Virus record (IMG/VR): IMGVR_UViG_3300037076_000476 | Coordinates: 1-21,172 of that record | Length of the DNA stretch: 21,172 nt | DNA from: a virus | Direction: 5' to 3' (one strand) | Part shown: piece by piece, positions 2,871 through 17,867 of the stretch | Numbering within the stretch: the first letter of the stretch is position 1 | Layout of the letters: every line of letters begins with the position of its first letter | Notes under the pieces: model-generated | The model's input: only the letters and a program-made list of their open reading frames with translations | What the model was told of the DNA's origin: nothing | Database searches by the model: none | Made by a program: the position numbers and the translations under genes

Positions 2871-3074
2871 ATCGAACGGTGCCACAAGGAGATTGCGGCA
2901 ATCGAAGCGGAGATCCGCGCCGGGAATCCCGACCTTCAAGGCCTGTGCCTGGCTCTCTCGGACTGGTCGGCGGAGTTGCGGATCATTAAAGACGAGCAAC
3001 GCCGCCTGCGGCGAGGCGGCGATTGGCAAGCTCTGTGGAACTGCGGGGAGGGTCCTACTTCAGGAGGTCCGTGA
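2871..3074 (+). CDS. Small coding-looking ORF with no canonical start, directly after the methylase stop
   Basis: The frame right after the TGA of the second methylase reads as a plausible soluble helical protein of 67 codons. It begins IERCHKEIAAIEAEIRAG, continues with LCLALSDWSAELRIIKDEQ and ends at TGA 3072-3074. Codon choice matches the neighbouring phage genes. No ATG, GTG or TTG occurs at its beginning; the first codon is ATC, in the same frame as the methylase. It may be a separate gene whose start was lost, a gene starting at ATG 2860 with a one-base indel, an ATC or reinitiation start, or a readthrough extension of the methylase. The function is unknown. The last 20 bases overlap the convergent gene on the other strand. 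Confidence 0.4.
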   Translation: MERCHKEIAAIEAEIRAGNPDLQGLCLALSDWSAELRIIKDEQRRLRRGGDWQALWNCGEGPTSGGP

Positions 3075-3357
3075 TCTCGTAGGCGATGCGGTAGTCACCG
3101 TCGATTCCGCGAGCCCAGACCTTGTACGTGTACGGGCAGATCCCCGGATCTTCTCCCCGCTCGATGCGGCGCATCCGGCCGCGCAGGTCGCTTTCGGCGA
3201 TCTCCTTCGCCTCGTTGATCGTGCTGGCGACTGCGACCGGCTCGTGGTGCCCTTCCTCGTCCTCGGCGATCAGCATCGCCAGGCCCAGTTCGGTGTCGGG
3301 CTGCAGCGGGAACGCAAATCCGTTGTAACTCGTGGTCTGCTTCTTGGTTCGTGCCAT
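3055..3357 (-). CDS. Conserved-looking small protein of unknown function
   Basis: A 100-residue protein starting MARTKKQTTSYNGFAFPL. The start at 3357 is chosen because AAGGAGA lies 9 bases upstream; the frame extends to 3399, but that part is the leader repeat. The N-terminus is basic. The middle is acidic and hydrophobic (LGLAMLIAEDEEGHHEPVAV), followed by a likely helix (INEAKEIAESDLRGRMRRIE). The C-terminus has aromatic residues (YTYKVWARGIDGDYRIAYE). No signal peptide or membrane segment is visible. I do not recognise the family. It lies on the strand opposite to the phage genes, upstream end next to the first copy of a 39-bp repeat that also precedes the DUF3489 gene, so the two are probably co-regulated but separately transcribed. 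Confidence 0.75.
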   Translation of the reverse strand: MARTKKQTTSYNGFAFPLQPDTELGLAMLIAEDEEGHHEPVAVASTINEAKEIAESDLRGRMRRIERGEDPGICPYTYKVWARGIDGDYRIAYEITDLLK

Positions 3358-3372
3358 CTGGTTCGTCTCCTT

Positions 3373-3411
3373 GCATGACGATTCATCACTCCGGCGCACC
3401 CGGAAGGCAAG
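3373..3411 (-). repeat. 39-bp leader repeat, copy 1
   Basis: A 39-base sequence matching 3953-3991 at 36 of 39 positions, 580 bases apart and in the same orientation. It lies 15 bases upstream of the minus-strand start at 3357. Read on the minus strand it contains TCCGG-N5-CCGGA. All three differences between the copies fall in the five-base centre, leaving both arms intact. TTGCCT, a 17-base gap and GATGAA could be a weak promoter with the inverted repeat as spacer. A shared operator or promoter is inferred, not shown. Confidence 0.8.
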
Positions 3412-3432
3412 GCAATAATCGCGGAGTGCCGT

Positions 3433-4013: not shown

Positions 4014-4508
4014 ATGCCAGTAATGAGCCAGCGGGCGTACTCCCGACAGCGCGGAGTCTCGGCGAGCACCGTCCAGAAGGCAATCGCGTCTGGTCGCATC
4101 CACACCTTGCCCAACGGCCAGATCGATTCCGAGATTGCCGACGCCGAGTGGGCGCGCAACACCCAAACCCAAGCGCCACCAGTGGACCGGCGCGGCCAGC
4201 AACCAGAAGACGACGCGGAGGTCTTTGGCGCGTCGCAGTACACGAAGGCGCGGGCGGTGCGGGAACACTACCAGGCGCGCCTCGCCAAGATCGATTACGA
4301 GGAACGGATCGCGAAGCTCGTCTCGGGCGAAGAAGTCCAGGTCGCCGCCTTCAATAAGTTCCGCCAGTTCCGCGACGCGATGATCAACCTCCCCGACCGC
4401 CTGGCGGCGATGCTTGCCGCCGAGACCGTAGAGGCCACCGTGCATGCGCTCCTCACGAATGAGATCCGGAAGGCCCTGAATGATTTTGCCGACGAATCTA
4501 ACGGCTGA
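4014..4508 (+). CDS. Phage terminase small subunit (Nu1-like)
   Basis: A 164-residue protein that should recognise packaging-initiation DNA and recruit the large terminase. The first 35 residues look like the winged-helix DNA-binding domain of Nu1-type proteins (SQRAYSRQRGVSASTVQKAI, then SGRIHTLPNGQID). A polar linker follows, then a helical region (about 80-160) with YTKARAVREHYQARLAKIDYE and FRQFRDAMINLPDRLAAMLA, as in many small terminases. An alternative ATG lies 9 bases downstream at 4023; neither has a strong ribosome site. The end overlaps the large subunit by 29 bases, which supports coupled translation. Confidence 0.85.
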   Translation: MPVMSQRAYSRQRGVSASTVQKAIASGRIHTLPNGQIDSEIADAEWARNTQTQAPPVDRRGQQPEDDAEVFGASQYTKARAVREHYQARLAKIDYEERIAKLVSGEEVQVAAFNKFRQFRDAMINLPDRLAAMLAAETVEATVHALLTNEIRKALNDFADESNG

Positions 4509-6405
4509 AGAGATCTACGGTGCAGCCGCGGCGGCTGGCGCGCGGCCGGACCCGTTGCTTACGATTTCTCAGTGGGCCGACCGCTATCGCTGGCTCTCGC
4601 AACGCGCGTCCGCAGAGCACGGGCGCTGGCGCACGGAGCGAACGCCCTACCTGCGCGAGATCATGGATTGCCTTTCGCCCATGTCGCTCATCGAGCGTAC
4701 GGTGTTCATGAAGGGCGCGCAGATCGGCGGCACGGAGTGCGGCAACAACTGGATGGGCTACATCATCCACCAGGCGCCGGGCCCGATGATGTCGGTGCAA
4801 CCGACCGTCGAGATGGCGAAGCGCAACTCGAAGCAGCGCATCGATCCGCTGATCGAAGAGTCGGAGGTCCTGCGGAAACTCGTCCGTGATCCCAGGTCGC
4901 GCGATTCCGGCAACACGGTTCTGTCGAAGGATTTTCCGGGCGGCGTGCTGGTGATGACCGGCGCGAACAGCGCGGTCGGCCTGCGGTCGATGGCGGCGCG
5001 ATATCTGTTCCTCGACGAGGTGGACGCTTACCCAGGTGATGTGGAGGGCGAGGGCGACCCGATCACGCTGGCGATGGCGCGCACGCGCACGTTCGCGCGC
5101 CGCAAAGTGTTTCTGGTATCGACACCGAAGATCACCGGCATGAGCCGGATCGAGTCGGCGTATGAGGAGAGCGACCAGCGGAAGTACTGGGTCCCGTGTC
5201 CCACGTGCCGCGAGTTCCAGATCCTGAAGTTCGCGCAACTGCGGTGGCCAAAGGGCGATCCGCAGAGTGCGGTTTACGTCTGCGAGCACTGCGGCCAGGA
5301 GATTCGCAACCATCAAAAGCACTCCATGCTGGCGCGCGGCGAGTGGCGGGCCGGCGCGAAAGGCGATGGTAGGACGGCGGGCTTCCATATCTCCAGCCTG
5401 TACAGTCCGGTCGGTTGGTTCTCGTGGGGCGACGCCGCCAAGCAGTTCGAGCAGGCGCAGAAAAACCCGGCGTTGCTTCAGGTCTTCGTCAACACCGTTC
5501 TGGGCGAGACGTGGACGCTGTTGGGAGAAGCGCCGGAGTGGCAGAAGCTTTATGACCGGCGCGAGTCGTACAAGATCGGCACGGTGCCCCCAGGCGGGCT
5601 GTTCCTGACGGCTGGCGCGGACGTCCAGAAGGACCGCATCGAAGTTGAGATTACCGCGTGGGGCCGGGGCAAGGAGTCGTGGTCGGTCGATTACCGGGTG
5701 CTCGAAGGGGACACTTCGCGACCGCAGGTTTGGGAGAAGCTAACCGCGCTCTTGAGTGAGACGTTCCCGACGGCGTCCGGTCTGGAGTTGCAGATCCTGC
5801 AACTCGCCGTGGATTCGGGCTTCGCCACCATCGAGGTGTACCAGTGGGCGCGAAGGCAGGGTGGGCGCGTGCTGGTGATCAAAGGCGATTCGCGGACGCC
5901 CGCTCTCATTGGGTCGGCGTCTCCGGTGGAGGTGGGCCCGGCGGGCGCGAAGCTGAAGCGCGGCGTCCGGGTTTGGCCGGTCAATTCCGGCATGGCCAAA
6001 GAGGAACTGTACCGTTGGCTTCGGCTTGACCGACCCACTGATGAGGATCTCTCGAAGGGAATTCCCTTTCCTCCGGGGTATTGTCACCTCCCGCGCTACA
6101 GCGAGGAGTACTTCAAGCAGATCACCGCCGAACAGTTGGTGACGAAGATCGTCAAAGGCTATCGCCGGCACGAGTGGCAGAAGATGCGCGAGCGTAACGA
6201 GGCGCTCGATTGCCGCGTGTATGCGCGCGCGGCCGCTGGACGGGTCGGCATCGACCGTTTCCAGGAGAAGCACTGGGGCGACCTTGAGCACCGAGTGGGC
6301 GCGCCTCGGGTGCAGGAAGTGAAACAAGCACAGCAGCAGCAAACGCAGAGCGCGGATGGCAGGCAGACCGCGCGTAACCGCGTGCGTTTCAGGATGGAGG
6401 TTTGA
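4480..6405 (+). CDS. Phage terminase large subunit, GpA family
   Basis: The 641-residue packaging motor and nuclease; lambda gpA has the same length. The ATPase domain has a Walker A-like loop KGAQIGGTE at 78-86, Walker B YLFLDEVD at 175-182 and VSTP at 213-216. Two Cys pairs, CPTC at 240-243 and CEHC at 268-271, form the zinc-binding insert typical of GpA proteins. The C-terminal nuclease half includes LTAGADVQKDRIEVE and AVDSGF with Asp445, a likely metal ligand. It cuts concatemeric phage DNA and drives it into the prohead through the portal. In lambda the gene is followed directly by W; here about 2 kb of unrelated sequence intervenes. Confidence 0.97.
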   Translation: MILPTNLTAEEIYGAAAAAGARPDPLLTISQWADRYRWLSQRASAEHGRWRTERTPYLREIMDCLSPMSLIERTVFMKGAQIGGTECGNNWMGYIIHQAPGPMMSVQPTVEMAKRNSKQRIDPLIEESEVLRKLVRDPRSRDSGNTVLSKDFPGGVLVMTGANSAVGLRSMAARYLFLDEVDAYPGDVEGEGDPITLAMARTRTFARRKVFLVSTPKITGMSRIESAYEESDQRKYWVPCPTCREFQILKFAQLRWPKGDPQSAVYVCEHCGQEIRNHQKHSMLARGEWRAGAKGDGRTAGFHISSLYSPVGWFSWGDAAKQFEQAQKNPALLQVFVNTVLGETWTLLGEAPEWQKLYDRRESYKIGTVPPGGLFLTAGADVQKDRIEVEITAWGRGKESWSVDYRVLEGDTSRPQVWEKLTALLSETFPTASGLELQILQLAVDSGFATIEVYQWARRQGGRVLVIKGDSRTPALIGSASPVEVGPAGAKLKRGVRVWPVNSGMAKEELYRWLRLDRPTDEDLSKGIPFPPGYCHLPRYSEEYFKQITAEQLVTKIVKGYRRHEWQKMRERNEALDCRVYARAAAGRVGIDRFQEKHWGDLEHRVGAPRVQEVKQAQQQQTQSADGRQTARNRVRFRMEV

Positions 6406-6496
6406 TTTCCGGTGGAGGAAATCATCAACTTCCCATTTTGCTACCTCATTTGTGGTACTCTTTTGGGTAGTTAGGCGATCATGCCTGAAGGAGACT

Positions 6497-7153
6497 ATGG
6501 GTTCACCGTTACTTCTCTACTTCGACCAGTCGGAAGTAGATCAAAGGCTTGCGGCACTTGGACTGGATATGGAAGTGCTCACTACGGCGGCATTGCAGGG
6601 ACTTGCTGGCTGGGCGTCATGCACATTGAATCATCCTCCTACGTACCCCGGCACGGTTGCGTGGGCGGAAGGCACCCGTGCTCTTCGCGAGGGGCTATTT
6701 GCTCGCGGGTGGATGCGTAAAAACGAAACGAACCTCCCATTGGTTGTTAATGCGGCTGAGACGATTGCTATCGCCTTTACATCAGGGGACGCGGACACTG
6801 GGCGAAAAGATGGGTATCCATCGACCAGGTCGGCAAAAGGTCCAAAAACTGCACAGGCGGTCCGAGTCAACCAGAGGCAGGAACAATTCGCCTTTATGGA
6901 CCCTGGTGCGGTCATCGCGTCGATCAAGACTGCTGGCAGGTCTACTTGGCTGCTTTTGACGTATCGGGACACCGCTTCCAGGGAGCTGCGCTCCGAGCTG
7001 TCTCGCCCGATTGATATGACGGAAGACGGCCATGTCAGCAAATGGGCCGAGAGAATTATCTTGACTGCATTCCCGCTTGATGAAAACCCACAGTTTGAAA
7101 GCGACGATGCTAATCAAAGTCCCGAGATCACCGTTGAAATCAACAAGTTGTGA
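6497..7153 (+). CDS. Unknown protein, partner of the HTH-metalloprotease gene
   Basis: A 218-residue soluble protein. The ATG at 6497 is preferred because AAGGAG lies 3 bases upstream; the frame is open to 6356 but overlaps the terminase. Visible segments are LQGLAGWASCTLNHPPTYPGT, WAEGTRALREGLFARGW, an AIAFTSGDADTGR stretch, a polar SAKGPKTAQAVRVNQ segment and a beta-rich STWLLLTYRD. No catalytic motif is certain. From memory, proteins with the NHPP-YPGT and WAE-RALRE pattern occur next to HTH/ImmA-IrrE fusions, but I could not check this. The two genes overlap and so are probably one operon. Base composition is more A/T-rich than the flanking phage genes, which suggests a later acquisition. 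A toxin-antitoxin or anti-phage role is inference only. Confidence 0.8.
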   Translation: MGSPLLLYFDQSEVDQRLAALGLDMEVLTTAALQGLAGWASCTLNHPPTYPGTVAWAEGTRALREGLFARGWMRKNETNLPLVVNAAETIAIAFTSGDADTGRKDGYPSTRSAKGPKTAQAVRVNQRQEQFAFMDPGAVIASIKTAGRSTWLLLTYRDTASRELRSELSRPIDMTEDGHVSKWAERIILTAFPLDENPQFESDDANQSPEITVEINKL

Positions 7154-8258
7154 TAGCGACAACAATGCTAGTGTCCCAACGCCGAGCCGAATTCGGCTTG
7201 CCCGTAAACGGCGAGGCTTAACTATAAGCGAGTTCGCCGCCAGAATCGGCGTTGATCGCAAATCAGTAACTGCATATGAGTCCGGAAAACATGCTCCTGT
7301 CAAGGAGGATGGGATGGCTAAGATTTCTGCAGCTACCGGATTTCCTCCAGAGTTCTTCTTTGGTGAAGACTTAGATGAGCCCAGCTTAGACAGCGGGAGT
7401 TTTAGATCCATGTCGAAGATGAGCGCGCCGCAACGCGATATGGCCTTGAGTCAAGCGGCGCTCGGACTCTATTTCAGCGCCTGGCTAGACAAGCGGTTCG
7501 GATTGCCGAAATCCGCCATTCCCGACATTGGCCGCGAACCTGATCCCGAGGCCGCGGCAGAGTCCGTACGGCGCGAGTGGGCGCTAGGGGTGCTCTCAAT
7601 CAGGAACATGATTCATCTCCTTGAGGCGAAGGGGGTGCGAGTGTTTTCTCTGGCTGTCGATGCGAGAGAAGTCGATGCGTTTTCCATGTGGAAGGGACAG
7701 ACGCCATTTGTATTTCTGAACACCAATAAGTCTTCTGAGCACAGCAGATTTGATGCCGCCCACGAATTGGGCCACTTGGTTCTCCACAAGCACGGAACGC
7801 CTCAGGGAATAGAGGCCGAAAAGCAAGCGAACGCCTTTGCTTCTGCGTTCTTGATGCCTCGGGCTAGCATCTACGCATCCGCTCCTAGATTTCCTACCTA
7901 CTCTGGCTTAGTGAACCTCAAACAACAATGGACTGTATCGGTCGCAGCGCTTGCATATCGATTGCACGGATTGGGCTTAGTGAGCGATTGGCAGTACAGG
8001 GGCGTATGTATTGAAATTGCTAAGCGAGGCAGGGACTGTGAGCCAAATAGTGCGCCGCAAGAAAGATCGGTGATTCTGCCCAAAGTGCTGGCGGACTTGT
8101 ACGACTCCGGCGTCAACCGCTCGCAGATTGCCAAAGAACTGTCGATCCCCACTTCGGAGTTGGAGCAACTGCTATTCGGCTTAACGATCACGGGAATAAA
8201 GGGCGGAGGAAACCGCCAATCTGGCTCAACCCCAGCTAACATCAGTCGCGTGAAATAG
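7107..8258 (+). CDS. Xre-family HTH regulator fused to ImmA/IrrE (COG2856-like) metallopeptidase
   Basis: A 383-residue fusion. Residues 27-80 are an Xre/Cro-type helix-turn-helix (RIRLARKRRGLTISEFAARI, VDRKSVTAYESG). The metallopeptidase domain (about 165-300) has the zinc motif HELGH at 219-223 and a third-ligand helix with EKQANAFASAFLMP. A C-terminal HTH-like segment (NRSQIAKELSIPTSELEQLL) is at about 337-356. ImmA/IrrE proteins cleave HTH repressors such as ImmR or DdrO; fusions of this kind have been proposed as toxin-antitoxin components. The ATG at 7107 overlaps the upstream gene by 47 bases; ATG 7080 and TTG 7077 are alternatives, and none has a good ribosome site, which suggests translational coupling. 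It could instead be a phage-state regulator, but its place inside the packaging operon argues for cargo. Confidence 0.9.
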   Translation: MLIKVPRSPLKSTSCDSDNNASVPTPSRIRLARKRRGLTISEFAARIGVDRKSVTAYESGKHAPVKEDGMAKISAATGFPPEFFFGEDLDEPSLDSGSFRSMSKMSAPQRDMALSQAALGLYFSAWLDKRFGLPKSAIPDIGREPDPEAAAESVRREWALGVLSIRNMIHLLEAKGVRVFSLAVDAREVDAFSMWKGQTPFVFLNTNKSSEHSRFDAAHELGHLVLHKHGTPQGIEAEKQANAFASAFLMPRASIYASAPRFPTYSGLVNLKQQWTVSVAALAYRLHGLGLVSDWQYRGVCIEIAKRGRDCEPNSAPQERSVILPKVLADLYDSGVNRSQIAKELSIPTSELEQLLFGLTITGIKGGGNRQSGSTPANISRVK

Positions 8259-8323
8259 CCCACGATAGCTCCTGAATCGGTCACTCGGAAACATCCACAT
8301 GGACTGGTAGTCTGCGTCTCCGA

Positions 8324-8340
8324 GAGATGACTCTCATCTC
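8324..8340. promoter_or_regulatory. Perfect 7-bp inverted repeat between the cargo insert and the head genes
   Basis: GAGATGA and TCATCTC flank CTC. It lies in the 141-base gap between the HTH-metalloprotease gene and the gpW-like gene. No T run follows, so it is not a standard terminator. It could be an operator for the HTH protein or mark the insert boundary. Nothing else is recognised in this gap. Confidence 0.35.
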
Positions 8341-8399
8341 ACGGGCGGGATTACGCTTGGCGCCTGATCCGTGCTGCGAATCCAGCCCAATACATTCAC

Positions 8400-8612
8400 A
8401 TGCCGTTCACTCAGACCGATCTCGATGCTCTCGACGCTGCGCGGAAGCAGGGCGCGAGGCGAGTCCGTTTTCAGGATCGTGAGTTCGAATTCGATTCCGT
8501 GGACGATTATCTGAAACTCCGGAATTTGATCCTGAATGACGTAGCCCAGCAGTCCGGGCCGCAGCAAGTGCGCCAGGTGCGCATCTACACGACCAACGGG
8601 TGGGGCCACTAA
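8400..8612 (+). CDS. gpW-like head-tail connector protein
   Basis: A 70-residue protein; lambda gpW has 68. It has the family pattern of an N-terminal helix (DLDALDAARKQGA), a two-strand basic hairpin (RRVRFQDREFEFDS) and a second helix (VDDYLKLRNLILND) with a polar tail. gpW closes the portal after DNA packaging and provides the platform for tail attachment. Its place just before the portal gene matches lambda order. The ribosome site is weak. The portal start follows 6 bases after its stop. Confidence 0.85.
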   Translation: MPFTQTDLDALDAARKQGARRVRFQDREFEFDSVDDYLKLRNLILNDVAQQSGPQQVRQVRIYTTNGWGH

Positions 8613-8618
8613 CTCGCC

Positions 8619-10217
8619 GTGCCAATTGAAACCTTGATGACGCTTGCCCGCCAGGCCGGGCACGAGCCGATGCCGATCCCGCGCGTCCCACGTACCCGCG
8701 CCATGGGGACGTTCCCGTTCGATGCCGCCGGTCGCGGGCGTCGGGGAATGGGATGGAACCCGCCGTCCCTCGGCCTCAACACGCTCCTGTTTTCGCATGG
8801 CCTGGAGTTGCAGGCGCGCAACCGGGACGCGGTTCGAAACAGTGCGTGGGCGGCGGCAGCCGTCGATTCCTACGTCGCCAACGCCATCGGGCGCGGCATT
8901 CGCCTGGTGCCGCACCATCCGGACGATAAGATCCGCGACCTGATCACCAGGAAGTGGAATCGATGGATACGCGAGTGCGACGTTGAGTACGACCCGCGGA
9001 ATCCCGCGTCTGGCCAGACGGATTTCTACGGGCAGCAGATGGTGATCGCACGCGAAGTCATGGAGGCCGGCGAGTGCTTCGTCCGGTTCCGGCCGCGCTC
9101 CGTGAAAGAAGGGCTGACAGTTCCGCTGCAACTGCAGCTCATCGAGGCCGAGCAGTTACCGTTGTGGCGCACGGCGGTCGAGCGGATGCCTCCGAACAAC
9201 TCTGTGCGGTGCGGCATCGAGTTTCAGACCGATGGGCGGCGCGCGGCGTACCACTTCTGGAAGTCGCATCCCGGCGAAACGATGTTCTTCCCGATGGATG
9301 CTCTATCGGTTGAGCGGGTGCCAGCGACCGAGGTGCTGCACGTCTACAAGCCGATTCGCGCGGGCCAGTTCCGGGGGCAGCCGTGGCTCACGTCGGTGAT
9401 CGCGAAGCTCTACGAACTGGAGCAATACACGGACGCCGAGATCGTCCGCAAGAAACTCGCGGCGATGATCACCGGGTTCATCACGCAGGCCAGCCCGGAC
9501 AATCCGATCATCCCTCCGGATCAATACCAGAACGGGCCGACCCAGACAGATCCAGGGACGCAGATCAGCAAGCTCGAACCCGGCACGTTCCAGGTTCTGA
9601 ACTTCGGCGAAGAGGTGCAGTTTGCCGAAGCGAAGGACAGTGGCGATTTCAAATCGTTCATTCGGACGTGCCTGCAAGCTTTTTCGAGTGGCGCCGGGCT
9701 CGCCGAGTATCAGATCAGCGGTGATCTGTCGGGGATCAACTATTCTTCGATCCGCGCCGGCCTGTTGGAGTTCCGCCGCAAGTGCGAACAGTATCAGCAT
9801 TCGGTTTTCATTTTCCAGGTCTGCCATCCGGTCTATAAGCGATGGCTGCGTGAGGCGATGCTGGCGCTGGTGTTCGGCGTCGATTTATTGAACGCCTATA
9901 GCAAAGATCCCGAGCCATTCGAGGAAGTGCAATGGGTGACGCCCGGCTGGCCGTGGGTTGACCCGGAGAAGGACATCAAGGCTTCCAACGACGCCATTCG
10001 CAGCGGTCTATCCACCCGTTCCACCGAGGTGGCGGCGCAAGGGCGCGATGCCGGGGCCGTGGATGCGGAGCAGGCAGCGGACAACGAGCGCGCCGACAAG
10101 CTCGGTCTCTCTTACGACAGCGATGGCCGGAAGGTCCTGACCGGGCGCAACGCCGGATTAACGGAAGCCGAGATCCAGCAGGATGCGAGCAAGGGAGAAG
10201 TGGACGTGAAGCCATGA
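8619..10217 (+). CDS. Phage portal protein, lambda gpB family
   Basis: A 532-residue portal subunit, close to lambda gpB (533). Family features include the N-terminal LQARNRDAVRNSAWAAAAVD region, VANAIGRGIRLVPH, the EVMEAGECFVRF segment, the FRGQPWLTSVIAKLYELEQY helix and the LSGINYSSIRAGLLEFRRKC motif. The dodecameric ring forms the DNA entry channel of the prohead and docks the terminase. The start is GTG at 8619, giving near-full length; ATG at 8637 is the alternative and would lose six residues. The stop overlaps the next start as ATGA, coupling portal and head protease. Confidence 0.96.
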   Translation: MPIETLMTLARQAGHEPMPIPRVPRTRAMGTFPFDAAGRGRRGMGWNPPSLGLNTLLFSHGLELQARNRDAVRNSAWAAAAVDSYVANAIGRGIRLVPHHPDDKIRDLITRKWNRWIRECDVEYDPRNPASGQTDFYGQQMVIAREVMEAGECFVRFRPRSVKEGLTVPLQLQLIEAEQLPLWRTAVERMPPNNSVRCGIEFQTDGRRAAYHFWKSHPGETMFFPMDALSVERVPATEVLHVYKPIRAGQFRGQPWLTSVIAKLYELEQYTDAEIVRKKLAAMITGFITQASPDNPIIPPDQYQNGPTQTDPGTQISKLEPGTFQVLNFGEEVQFAEAKDSGDFKSFIRTCLQAFSSGAGLAEYQISGDLSGINYSSIRAGLLEFRRKCEQYQHSVFIFQVCHPVYKRWLREAMLALVFGVDLLNAYSKDPEPFEEVQWVTPGWPWVDPEKDIKASNDAIRSGLSTRSTEVAAQGRDAGAVDAEQAADNERADKLGLSYDSDGRKVLTGRNAGLTEAEIQQDASKGEVDVKP

Positions 10218-11887
10218 GGGATCTGACTCGTGTTGCCTCGCGGTTTGTGAACACGCCGCTCATGATTCACCCGCCCAAGCTGGACGTGATCGTCCAGGCG
10301 CTGGGGCCACGGCTGGGGATCATTCCGGTGGCCGGCGTGAAGCCCGCGGAACCGTTCGCCGCCGCGTACATGGAGCAGGCGGATGACAGCGGCTACCAGG
10401 TGATCGACGGCGTGGCGATCATTCCGATCCAGGGCGTGCTGACGAAAGCGGAATCCTGGGTTTCGGCGCTGAGTGGTTGCAGTTCCTATGCGCAGATCGG
10501 CGGCTACCTTCGGGACGCGGTCAACGACGCCGGAGTGCGGGCGATCCTTTTGCAGGTGGATTCGCCGGGCGGCGAGACCACGGGATGCCTGGAACTGTCC
10601 GACTACATCTACTCGATTCGCGGCGCGAAGCCGATCTTCGCGGTCGCCGACGACTTCGCATTCTCAGCGGCCTACGCTCTGACCAGCGCTGCCGACAAGA
10701 TCTTCGTCACGCGCATGGGAGCGGTCGGGTCCGTCGGCGTGGTGGTACTGCATACCGAGGATTCGAAGTTCAACGACGAGCAGGGGCTCAAGTACACCTA
10801 CGTCTTCAAAGGCGACAAGAAGGTCGATGGGAACCCGCATGAACCGCTGTCGGAGCGGGCCGAGAAGGACATCCAGTCCGAGATTGACCGGCAGTACGAG
10901 CAGTTCGTAGCAACGGTTGCGCGGAACCGGAAGGCTGACGCAGAAAAGATCATCGCGACACAGGCTGGCGTGTACTGGTCGGAGAATGCCGTTCCGCTCC
11001 TGGCCGACGAAGTCGGAACGCTGGGCGATGCCATGAACGCGCTTCGTCAACTGCTTGGCGAGCCTGTCCAGAGTTCAACGGCGGCGATTGCCGCAAGATC
11101 CACAACCAAGGAGGTTACAGCAAGTATGCCCAACGAAACGCTCACAATCGCCGCCGAGGGCAAGAAGCCGGGCGACGGTGGCGGCGACGAGAAGACCAAC
11201 ACCGAGCCGAAGTATTGCCACGCGTGCGGAACCAAGCTCCACGCAGACGCAACGTTCTGCCATGCCTGCGGCACGAAGGCCGAAGGCGAGGCGTCCGGTA
11301 AGTTCTGCCACGCCTGCGGTGCCGAGCTGCGCAAAGGCGCGGAGTACTGCCATGCCTGCGGCGAGAACGCAAAGAGCGACGCCAAGAAACCGGAGGGCAT
11401 GGCACCGCTCGCTGGCGTCGCTGCCTTGGCCGGCGTGCCGCTCAGGATGCGTCCGGAAGGCGACATCGAAGCCATCGGCGCGCTGTGCAAGATGGCCGGT
11501 TGTCCCGACAAGGCCGCGGAGTTCCTCACTAAGAAGAAGTCCACGGGCCAATACTTCAGCGTGGCGGAAATCAGCGAAGAGCTGACAGCCGCCCGCGTGA
11601 TGGAAAGCGAGAGGAGCATGATTACTTCCCACGTCAACCCGAACCAGGGCGCGGTTGGTTCGCTTCAGGAGATTGAAGCCCAAGCCACCAGCTACGCCCG
11701 CCAGAATCGCGGCAAAGAGACTCCGAATCTTTACGCCGAAAGCGGTACCACCAAGCTGACCAAGGAGCGCGCCTACGCCCTAATGCTCGAAGAGCATCCC
11801 GAGGTTTACGGCGCGTTCGTGGCGCAGCACAACGCGAAGGGCCTGATCGCCACGCTCGAGCGGGCTGGCGTTCGCCTTGCCCGGTAG
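10214..11887 (+). CDS. S49-family head maturation protease fused to scaffold, with four CHACG zinc knuckles
   Basis: A 557-residue protein in the lambda gpC/Nu3 position. Residues 60-280 are an S49 (SppA/ClpP-fold) protease: LLQVDSPGGE at 112-121, the probable catalytic Ser151 in DDFAFSAAYAL, GAVGSVGVV at 169-177 and a Lys-rich FKGDKKVDGNP loop at about 198-207 that should hold the catalytic Lys. It processes scaffold and portal inside the prohead. The second half (305-557) is the scaffold region, with helical ends (AYALMLEEHPEVYGAFVAQH). Four Cys pairs at 335/338, 349/352, 365/368 and 379/382 form two apparent zinc ribbons, which I do not know from lambda gpC. An internal start at 11126 probably yields scaffold alone. 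Confidence 0.93.
   Translation: MRDLTRVASRFVNTPLMIHPPKLDVIVQALGPRLGIIPVAGVKPAEPFAAAYMEQADDSGYQVIDGVAIIPIQGVLTKAESWVSALSGCSSYAQIGGYLRDAVNDAGVRAILLQVDSPGGETTGCLELSDYIYSIRGAKPIFAVADDFAFSAAYALTSAADKIFVTRMGAVGSVGVVVLHTEDSKFNDEQGLKYTYVFKGDKKVDGNPHEPLSERAEKDIQSEIDRQYEQFVATVARNRKADAEKIIATQAGVYWSENAVPLLADEVGTLGDAMNALRQLLGEPVQSSTAAIAARSTTKEVTASMPNETLTIAAEGKKPGDGGGDEKTNTEPKYCHACGTKLHADATFCHACGTKAEGEASGKFCHACGAELRKGAEYCHACGENAKSDAKKPEGMAPLAGVAALAGVPLRMRPEGDIEAIGALCKMAGCPDKAAEFLTKKKSTGQYFSVAEISEELTAARVMESERSMITSHVNPNQGAVGSLQEIEAQATSYARQNRGKETPNLYAESGTTKLTKERAYALMLEEHPEVYGAFVAQHNAKGLIATLERAGVRLAR
11126..11887 (+). CDS. Internal in-frame start giving a Nu3-like scaffold protein
   Basis: Codon 305 of the protease gene is ATG (MPNETLTIAAEG), preceded by a full AAGGAGG ribosome site at 11108-11114 with an 11-base spacer. 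This is a stronger signal than that of most gene starts nearby. Translation from here would give a 253-residue protein without the protease domain but with the zinc knuckles and scaffold helices. In lambda, Nu3 scaffold is made exactly this way from inside gene C. The product would line the prohead core and be digested by the full-length protease. The spacer is a little long. Confidence 0.7.
   Translation: MPNETLTIAAEGKKPGDGGGDEKTNTEPKYCHACGTKLHADATFCHACGTKAEGEASGKFCHACGAELRKGAEYCHACGENAKSDAKKPEGMAPLAGVAALAGVPLRMRPEGDIEAIGALCKMAGCPDKAAEFLTKKKSTGQYFSVAEISEELTAARVMESERSMITSHVNPNQGAVGSLQEIEAQATSYARQNRGKETPNLYAESGTTKLTKERAYALMLEEHPEVYGAFVAQHNAKGLIATLERAGVRLAR
11213..11362 (+). repeat. Four tandem CHACG zinc-knuckle repeats
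   Basis: Four copies of a Cys-His-Ala-Cys-Gly unit, each preceded by Tyr or Phe, within the protease/scaffold gene. Spacing between the pairs is 10, 12 and 10 residues, so repeats 1-2 and 3-4 look like two duplicated double-knuckle ribbons. The DNA copies are also similar (TGCCAYGCSTGCGG in all four), which suggests tandem duplication. Confidence 0.9.
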
Positions 11888-17324: not shown

Positions 17325-17543
17325 ATGGAACTCGTAATCGATCCCGACGTCAAAACCGTTGCTGAGTTTATGCAGGGCCGATTCTCTGCGGCCCGCCTCG
17401 TTGCCGTTGCTAACGGACTAGCCTCAATCGCTCCGCTTCTGTGGGGCCGATATCAGCCAGAGGAAGTCCAGACGCTCCGACTTGCCTGTAATGCCCCTAC
17501 TTCGCTTGATGATCGGCATACACAATCAGGCGCCAACGAATAG
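17325..17543 (+). CDS. Small unknown protein, possibly truncated
   Basis: A 72-residue ORF with AAAGGAAC about 8 bases before the ATG. It starts MELVIDPDVKTVAEFMQGRF and has a helical SAARLVAVANGLASIAPLLW and YQPEEVQTLRLACNA. The last 16 codons overlap the convergent minus-strand gene and read like a shadow (TSLDDRHTQSGANE), which suggests the original end was replaced when that gene arrived. I do not recognise the family. It could be a tail accessory protein. Confidence 0.55.
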   Translation: MELVIDPDVKTVAEFMQGRFSAARLVAVANGLASIAPLLWGRYQPEEVQTLRLACNAPTSLDDRHTQSGANE

Positions 17544-17733
17544 GTTGAGGTGGCGTGTGCTGGTGATGATTCTGCGGCGGGAGTGGCTTGTGTTGCTCCG
17601 AGACAAGTTCGTGTCCGCACGCCATGCAGCGATAGATACCGGAAAACGGAGTTGCATCTCCTGGCTTATGATCAGTGTCGTAAGCCGCGTTATCGCTTTT
17701 CTTTAGATGTTCGCCGTATTTGTACCATGCCAT
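17497..17733 (-). CDS. Small CxxC protein with GIYRCxxCG and PLPPQNHHQH motifs
   Basis: A 78-residue protein on the opposite strand to the tail genes. Motifs are HKPGDATPFSGIYRCMACGH (one CxxC pair), KPLPPQNHHQH and IRWRLIVYA. From memory, this pattern occurs in small bacterial proteins of unknown function, some labelled protein L; I could not verify it. The His cluster and Cys pair suggest metal binding. The start at 17733 is preferred to 17739 because AGGGG lies about 9 bases upstream. It has its own putative promoter and sits as an independent gene inside the tail operon, a typical moron layout. Confidence 0.8.
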   Translation of the reverse strand: MAWYKYGEHLKKSDNAAYDTDHKPGDATPFSGIYRCMACGHELVSEQHKPLPPQNHHQHTPPQPIRWRLIVYADHQAK

Positions 17734-17775
17734 GGTCATTTGCCCCTGTACACTGTCGGAAAAGCCTCAGACCCT

Positions 17776-17794
17776 CATCTCCGTTGGGGAGATG
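17776..17794 (-). promoter_or_regulatory. Hairpin in the leader of the minus-strand CxxC gene
   Basis: CATCTCC and GGAGATG form a 7-bp stem with a 5-base loop, between the putative promoter and the start at 17733. A leader structure or operator is possible. No T run follows on either strand, so a terminator is unlikely. The rest of 17740-17943 holds no gene that I can support. Confidence 0.3.
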
Positions 17795-17837
17795 CGAAAG
17801 AGCGTTCGTTCTTCGGGTCAATGGTCTCACCTTTACG

Positions 17838-17867
17838 ATTATGTAACGACGGCAGGCTTCCCGACAA
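17838..17867 (-). promoter_or_regulatory. Putative sigma-70-like promoter of the minus-strand CxxC gene
   Basis: On the minus strand, TTGTCG (17862-17867) and CATAAT (17838-17843) are separated by 18 bases. The -10 matches TATAAT at five of six positions, the -35 is weaker. Transcription would begin near 17831 and leave a leader of about 100 bases before the ATG at 17733. This supports independent expression from the phage late operon. Confidence 0.4.

Follow-up and report, generated by a model that had tools for sequence, protein, structure and literature searches.

Two-gene systems of the RosmerTA type, for which PMC12795458 cites Millman et al. 2022 as the source, include several pairs that have been tested experimentally. 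The pair carried by Gordonia phage Kita is toxic, is neutralized in part, and protects against some coliphages; its toxin RmrT-D5 depolarizes membranes (PMC10440598). RipAB (Spr1630/Spr1629) of Streptococcus pneumoniae, a member of the Rosmer family, is a working toxin–antitoxin pair in which RipA acts on the DnaN sliding clamp (PMC12795458). Against most of the phages tried, RosmerTA homologs of S. thermophilus proved inefficient (PMC12322248). RosmerTA toxins are diverse, and the Kita and RipA mechanisms therefore do not transfer to the toxin described here.

The window—the whole 21,172-nt stretch of DNA analyzed, from virus record IMGVR_UViG_3300037076_000476—carries a pair of this known type between the large-terminase (terL) and gpW genes. 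We consider it very probably a RosmerTA-type toxin–antitoxin (phage-defense) cassette, carried as exchangeable terL–gpW cargo by an uncultivated, lambda-type tailed phage of an at least partly temperate lineage. The terL–gpW hotspot and the boundary element found there are the newer part.

The rmrTA pair and its predicted operator

Five features define the pair:
6424..6475, + strand: predicted RmrA operator overlapping the rmrTA promoter, a nested palindrome (PWM and symmetry)
6497..7153, + strand: rmrT, RosmerTA toxin, 218 aa (PADLOC RmrT PDLC03935, 203.9 bits, E = 5.5e-61)
7107..8258, + strand: rmrA, RosmerTA antitoxin, Xre-HTH + M78/ImmA-IrrE fusion, 383 aa (PADLOC RmrA PDLC03949, 474 bits, E = 5.2e-143)
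7191..7352, + strand: Xre-type HTH of RmrA, residues 29–82 (domain search)
7761..7775, + strand: HELGH zinc-peptidase motif of RmrA, residues 219–223 (alignment of 19 sequences)

An earlier, sequence-only reading had described a 218-residue protein overlapping an Xre-HTH/ImmA-IrrE fusion with an intact HELGH motif and had named RosmerTA as a defense model to search. Both descriptions are borne out, and both proteins match the RosmerTA models. rmrT starts at ATG 6497 and overlaps rmrA by 47 nt when rmrA is read from ATG 7107, a start preferred over the in-frame ATG 7080 because the related contig L003 conserves a counterpart of the former and has none of the latter. RmrA contains PF06114 (Peptidase_M78; E = 1e-26) and HTH_3 (E = 2.8e-9) domains, and its HELGH motif and downstream E238 are invariant across the 19 aligned sequences. 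The locus thus combines an RmrA-type fusion with an intact HEXXH, an RmrT-model partner, and an adjacent, one-operon arrangement. RmrT itself has no sequence match in Pfam, NCBIfam, PHROG, or PDB, and PDB sequence searches with RmrT singly or as a profile returned nothing credible. The expectation of a defined two-component pair stands; that of a partner of wholly unknown kind does not, since a PADLOC model covers the RmrT subfamily.

The L003 proteins are 91–93% identical to those of the window. Relative to L003, rmrT has a dN/dS of 0.079 and rmrA one of 0.115, with somewhat lower values for gpW (0.044) and portal (0.046); by this measure all four genes are under purifying selection.

Pairing was counted from both partners. 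Searched alone, RmrT homologs appeared in 2 phage records, 24 plasmid records, and 12 viral contigs, and RmrA lies directly downstream of RmrT in all 30 phage, plasmid, and viral loci examined. Because wide RmrT alignments had no conserved stretches, the genome census was run through RmrA only, taking the best 80 loci, which span many phyla. RmrT is directly upstream of RmrA in 79/79 assessable loci: 77 of the 80 by the automatic rule and two more inside long open frames, which the distance rule did not catch, with a contig end interrupting the upstream region of the remaining one. This figure is valid for the present RmrA subfamily (the 80 closest relatives), not for all RmrA proteins, and within that subfamily the counts identify RmrT and RmrA as obligate partners. 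The sequence-only reading had treated the two genes as a unit, a view that an RmrT lacking an HTH/ImmA-IrrE neighbor would have undercut; the two occur together essentially always.

Within the 130 bp 5′ of rmrT at 76 loci, CCTCA-N2-TGAGG and its flanking words are strongly enriched relative to shuffles. The family consensus, TTCTTGTTTTTCnnCCTCAnnTGAGGTAnAAnAAnCGGAA, is a nested palindrome located mostly 38–60 bp 5′ of the toxin start, and its core is flanked by hexamers like TTGTTT and TAGAAA at a spacing of 17 bp. The window copy has the arms AACTnCCCA...TACCTCA-tt-TGtGGTA...TGGGnAGTT. Using a PWM built from 29 loci, with the window and L003 excluded, the top site in the whole 21-kb window is 6424–6475 (26.7 bits; runner-up place, 11.1). 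Symmetric pairs number 14 of 23 (P = 0.0015 in shuffles), and departures from consensus in one arm tend to recur in the other (e.g., L170, L098, and L148). The operator is kept ahead of the toxin gene in several phyla, among them Pseudomonadota, Actinomycetota, Acidobacteriota, and Gemmatimonadota. A sigma-70 consensus scan of 6300–8500 found no promoter; the rmrTA promoter call is based on the conserved family alignment. The palindrome resembles the site of a dimeric HTH repressor and is a plausible binding site for RmrA, and the conserved operator/promoter predicts rmrTA autorepression.

The terL–gpW junction as a cargo site

The site is delimited by the following features:
4480..6405, + strand: TerL (large terminase), left flank of the cargo site (phrog_15, E = 4.7e-265)
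8312..8399, + strand: right-boundary element, ~87 bp, directly 5′ of gpW (leave-one-out profiles)
8400..8612, + strand: gpW-like head–tail adaptor (Ad1), right flank of the cargo site (phrog_2545, E = 8.9e-14)

The terL stop codon occupies 6403–6405 and gpW starts at 8400; the portal gene of the window also has a PHROGs match. The intervening ~2 kb holds the two overlapping genes and is lower in G+C, as the sequence-only reading had observed: 53.6% in the insert (6408–8311) vs. 62.6% in the remainder of the window, where every 1.9-kb stretch is at least 59.9%. GC3 differs likewise (0.56–0.57 for rmrT/rmrA vs. 0.81 for terL and 0.79 for portal). Relatives with an empty site have 2–4 nt between terL and gpW; DNA homology to them ends at 6398, and homology to cargo-bearing relatives ends at 6405–6407. 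These borders, drawn from relatives without the pair, support the proposed insertion of cargo into a late operon. The insert is real: the 2-nt gap in relatives, the homology stop at 6398, and purifying selection relative to L003 exclude chance. An artifact or decaying insert is ruled out by the dN/dS values (0.08 and 0.12) and by the presence of the RosmerTA pair at terL–gpW in contigs L002 and L003.

Judged by TerL, the closest isolated phages are Wolbachia phage WO (57–59%) and Rhodobacter phages (55%); the gpW-annotated records of Wolbachia phage WO KX522565 and Rhodobacter phage RcBaka have terL, gpW, and portal side by side. Of the 12 long contigs from relatives, 5 carry a tyrosine integrase, which suggests that this lambda-type lineage is at least partly temperate; the window phage has no recognized integrase within its 21 kb. 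Three other regions of the window stand out. Homology to many close relatives jumps from 3067 to 3421, leaving out ~350 bp; a 114-aa ORF on the reverse strand, which may be a further small cargo gene, falls mostly within this stretch. Positions 1–2870 contain two consecutive ~500-aa genes, each with a ParB-like N terminus and a DNA methyltransferase by eye, which suggests a tandem duplication. In the head maturation protease at 10214–11887 (phrog_53), the C-terminal half carries CHACG repeats that resemble zinc ribbons, which makes it an unusual fusion.

The junction is polymorphic among related phages. Counts were taken from two scans, limited to the best-scoring 80 loci each, and are not population frequencies: 70 unique junctions (gpW at least 75% identical) comprise 51 empty and 19 occupied sites, and at gpW identity of at least 90%, uncollapsed, 67 sites are empty and 24 occupied, including the window copy. 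The recurrent occupants are as follows:
RosmerTA: window, L002, L003
LmuA–LmuC–LmuB (Lamassu/ABC-3C): L007, L192, L193
Ser/Thr kinase between two unknowns: L008, L191
HATPase/REase-like protein + cytosine methyltransferase (type II) + Vsr: L194, L195
GMT-wHTH protein + DUF5131 (PADLOC PDC-M30A/B): L196, L201

Elsewhere the site holds proteins of HATPase, ankyrin, or HEPN-like type, and several occupants are without any match. This pattern indicates that the terL–gpW junction is an insertion hotspot in related phages, and a limited literature search, weak as evidence of absence, found no description of one there. With Lamassu/ABC-3C, restriction-modification-like, and still unnamed cargos at the same site, reading this junction in phage metagenomes offers a cheap route to new defense genes.

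Several individual junctions merit record. Cargo genes lie on the opposite strand in L009, L027, L032, L034, L058, L061, L227, L238, and L242; most are without a family match, some look membrane, ankyrin, HEPN-like, or HNH-like by eye, and they are candidates for novel defense or exclusion genes. Homing-endonuclease insertion was considered, and none was recognized among the occupants examined; the L238 occupant has an N terminus that is HNH-like by eye, with no Pfam match. A second low-G+C stretch of the window (17325–17867, ~54%) carries two small genes, one per strand, and shares 67% DNA identity with the L211 cargo (1589–2140), which sits at terL–gpW; this similarity identifies the islet and the L211 cargo as one cassette that occupies different positions in related phages. 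Junctions L200 and L206 lie on a single 85.6-kb contig, IMGVR_UViG_3300048503_000180—one empty, the other with a 420-bp insert—which represents either a tandem pair of related prophages or an assembly join.

The right-boundary element is common to eight occupied sites with otherwise unrelated cargos. Leave-one-out profiles recovered each omitted copy (E = 5.6e-9 to 3e-18; window, E = 2.8e-10), and the same procedure on the neighboring 90 bp recovered none. The element was not found at empty sites, and ~4 Mb of searched strands contained no convincing further copy. It is not universal at occupied sites: L003, also with RosmerTA cargo, and several others gave no significant match. A conserved RNA structure is not supported (of 8 pairs, 2 show double changes, and the covariation term is slightly unfavorable), Rfam returned no match, and a promoter within the element is not supported, its sigma-70 hexamers being too degenerate and spaced 19–20. 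Candidate roles are a promoter/leader for gpW or homology for cassette exchange. We see roughly balanced prospects for the fuller interpretation, that terL–gpW is an unreported defense hotspot with an ~87-bp cis element retained across cassette exchange and serving gpW/head-gene expression and/or recombination homology. The element raises the question of how cargo can sit inside a head-gene run without loss of downstream expression.

Proposed function and alternative readings

Because related phages leave the slot empty or fill it with unrelated defense genes, the pair most likely serves as exchangeable anti-phage cargo. The toxin–antitoxin/defense-pair lead of the sequence-only reading thus holds at the level of model matches, pairing, and the borders seen in relatives. 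We propose that RmrA, through its Xre-HTH, occupies the nested palindrome at 6424–6475 and represses the overlapped promoter. RmrT would be translated first from the coupled, overlapping operon and neutralized by RmrA; infection by another phage, or RmrA ceasing to function, would free it. This step may involve the M78 metallopeptidase of RmrA, which possibly cleaves an HTH domain, as ImmA acts on ImmR (PMC2701414). Freed RmrT would then arrest the cell, shielding both the resident prophage and the population of lysogens against competitors. The dual role of RmrA as repressor and neutralizer, and the release of toxin on loss of control, are proposed by analogy with the tested RosmerTA pairs (PMC10440598, PMC12795458).

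The predicted structure bears on how RmrT might act. AF2 models (pLDDT 90 for the window RmrT and 91 for that of L118) predict a compact globular α/β protein, not membrane-localized. For both models VIA-align ranked NaeI first, with EcoRV, Holliday-junction resolvases, and SPARDA nuclease domains also high, and the fold appears weakly reminiscent of restriction-endonuclease cores. These rankings would suit a toxin of nuclease-like type (PD-(D/E)XK fold), with DNA or RNA as its target and RmrA acting as both repressor and inhibitor. We hold this version to be tentative and on balance unlikely: the scores against NaeI fall in the chance range of Z below 8 (window, Z 6.5, rmsd 4.1, 149 aligned; L118, Z 7.5, rmsd 3.6, 135 aligned), Foldseek with the RmrT models gave no E below 0.001 and headed the L118 list with histidine-kinase chains, and the D...(D/E)xK catalytic motif was not found in the RmrT alignment, where D98 is conserved in 72%. 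A BFVD fold search with RmrT gave no match under E 0.001. The most conserved polar residues are R64, T101, K114, N125, E167, S169, and R186. A nuclease-like RmrT would refine the RosmerTA explanation rather than compete with it.

A genuine competitor is a plain addiction or maintenance module, stabilizing its carrier prophage or plasmid and without an anti-phage role. The same pair does occur on plasmids—some conjugative or mobilizable—and on chromosomes, and its predicted autoregulated toxin–antitoxin architecture fits such a module. We nevertheless think this improbable, as the slot is otherwise filled partly by known anti-phage systems and protection against phages has been reported for other RosmerTA systems (PMC10440598).

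The idea that RmrA is a CI/ImmR–ImmA-like lifestyle regulator, with RmrT as accessory or anti-repressor in a lysogeny control unit, draws on its match to phrog_2439 'transcriptional regulator' (E = 1.1e-88) and on the control of ICEBs1 and some prophages by HTH + M78 pairs (PMC2701414), but we reject it as very improbable because most relatives are without the pair at terL–gpW, where core regulators would be expected in all, the same partners reside on plasmids and chromosomes, the predicted operator of RmrA lies at its own promoter, and HTH and M78 are fused rather than a separate repressor and protease.

With the RosmerTA cassette as the preferred explanation, an anonymous late-operon insert becomes a defined toxin–antitoxin cassette. 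Its obligate partner, predicted operator, and clear empty site make this RmrT subfamily directly testable.

Comparison with known systems

Like other RosmerTA systems, the locus has two adjacent genes, an HTH + ImmA/IrrE fusion antitoxin and an RmrT toxin gene, and is of a kind that is phage-borne among other settings. It departs from the Kita pair in its position between terL and gpW and in its toxin, predicted to be globular α/β and not membrane-localized, unlike RmrT-D5. With RipAB it shares the Xre-ImmA antitoxin architecture and a toxin gene in the same operon; against NF052239, the NCBIfam model for spr1629, RmrA nevertheless reaches 105.9 bits, below the cut-off of 335, and in this differs from RipB. 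ImmR/ImmA of ICEBs1 and related HTH-COG2856 regulators likewise combine an Xre-HTH with a HEXXH metallopeptidase, but as two separate proteins controlling a mobile element, whereas RmrA is one fusion paired with a toxin (PMC2701414).

As a site, the junction recalls the P2/P4 hotspots, where a fixed phage locus beside packaging genes receives interchangeable defense cassettes (Rousset et al. 2022, PMC9122126). The P2 hotspot lies beside cos, between gpA and portal gpQ (PMC9122126). The terL–gpW site differs in lying within the run of packaging and head genes and in having a boundary element that unrelated cargos share.
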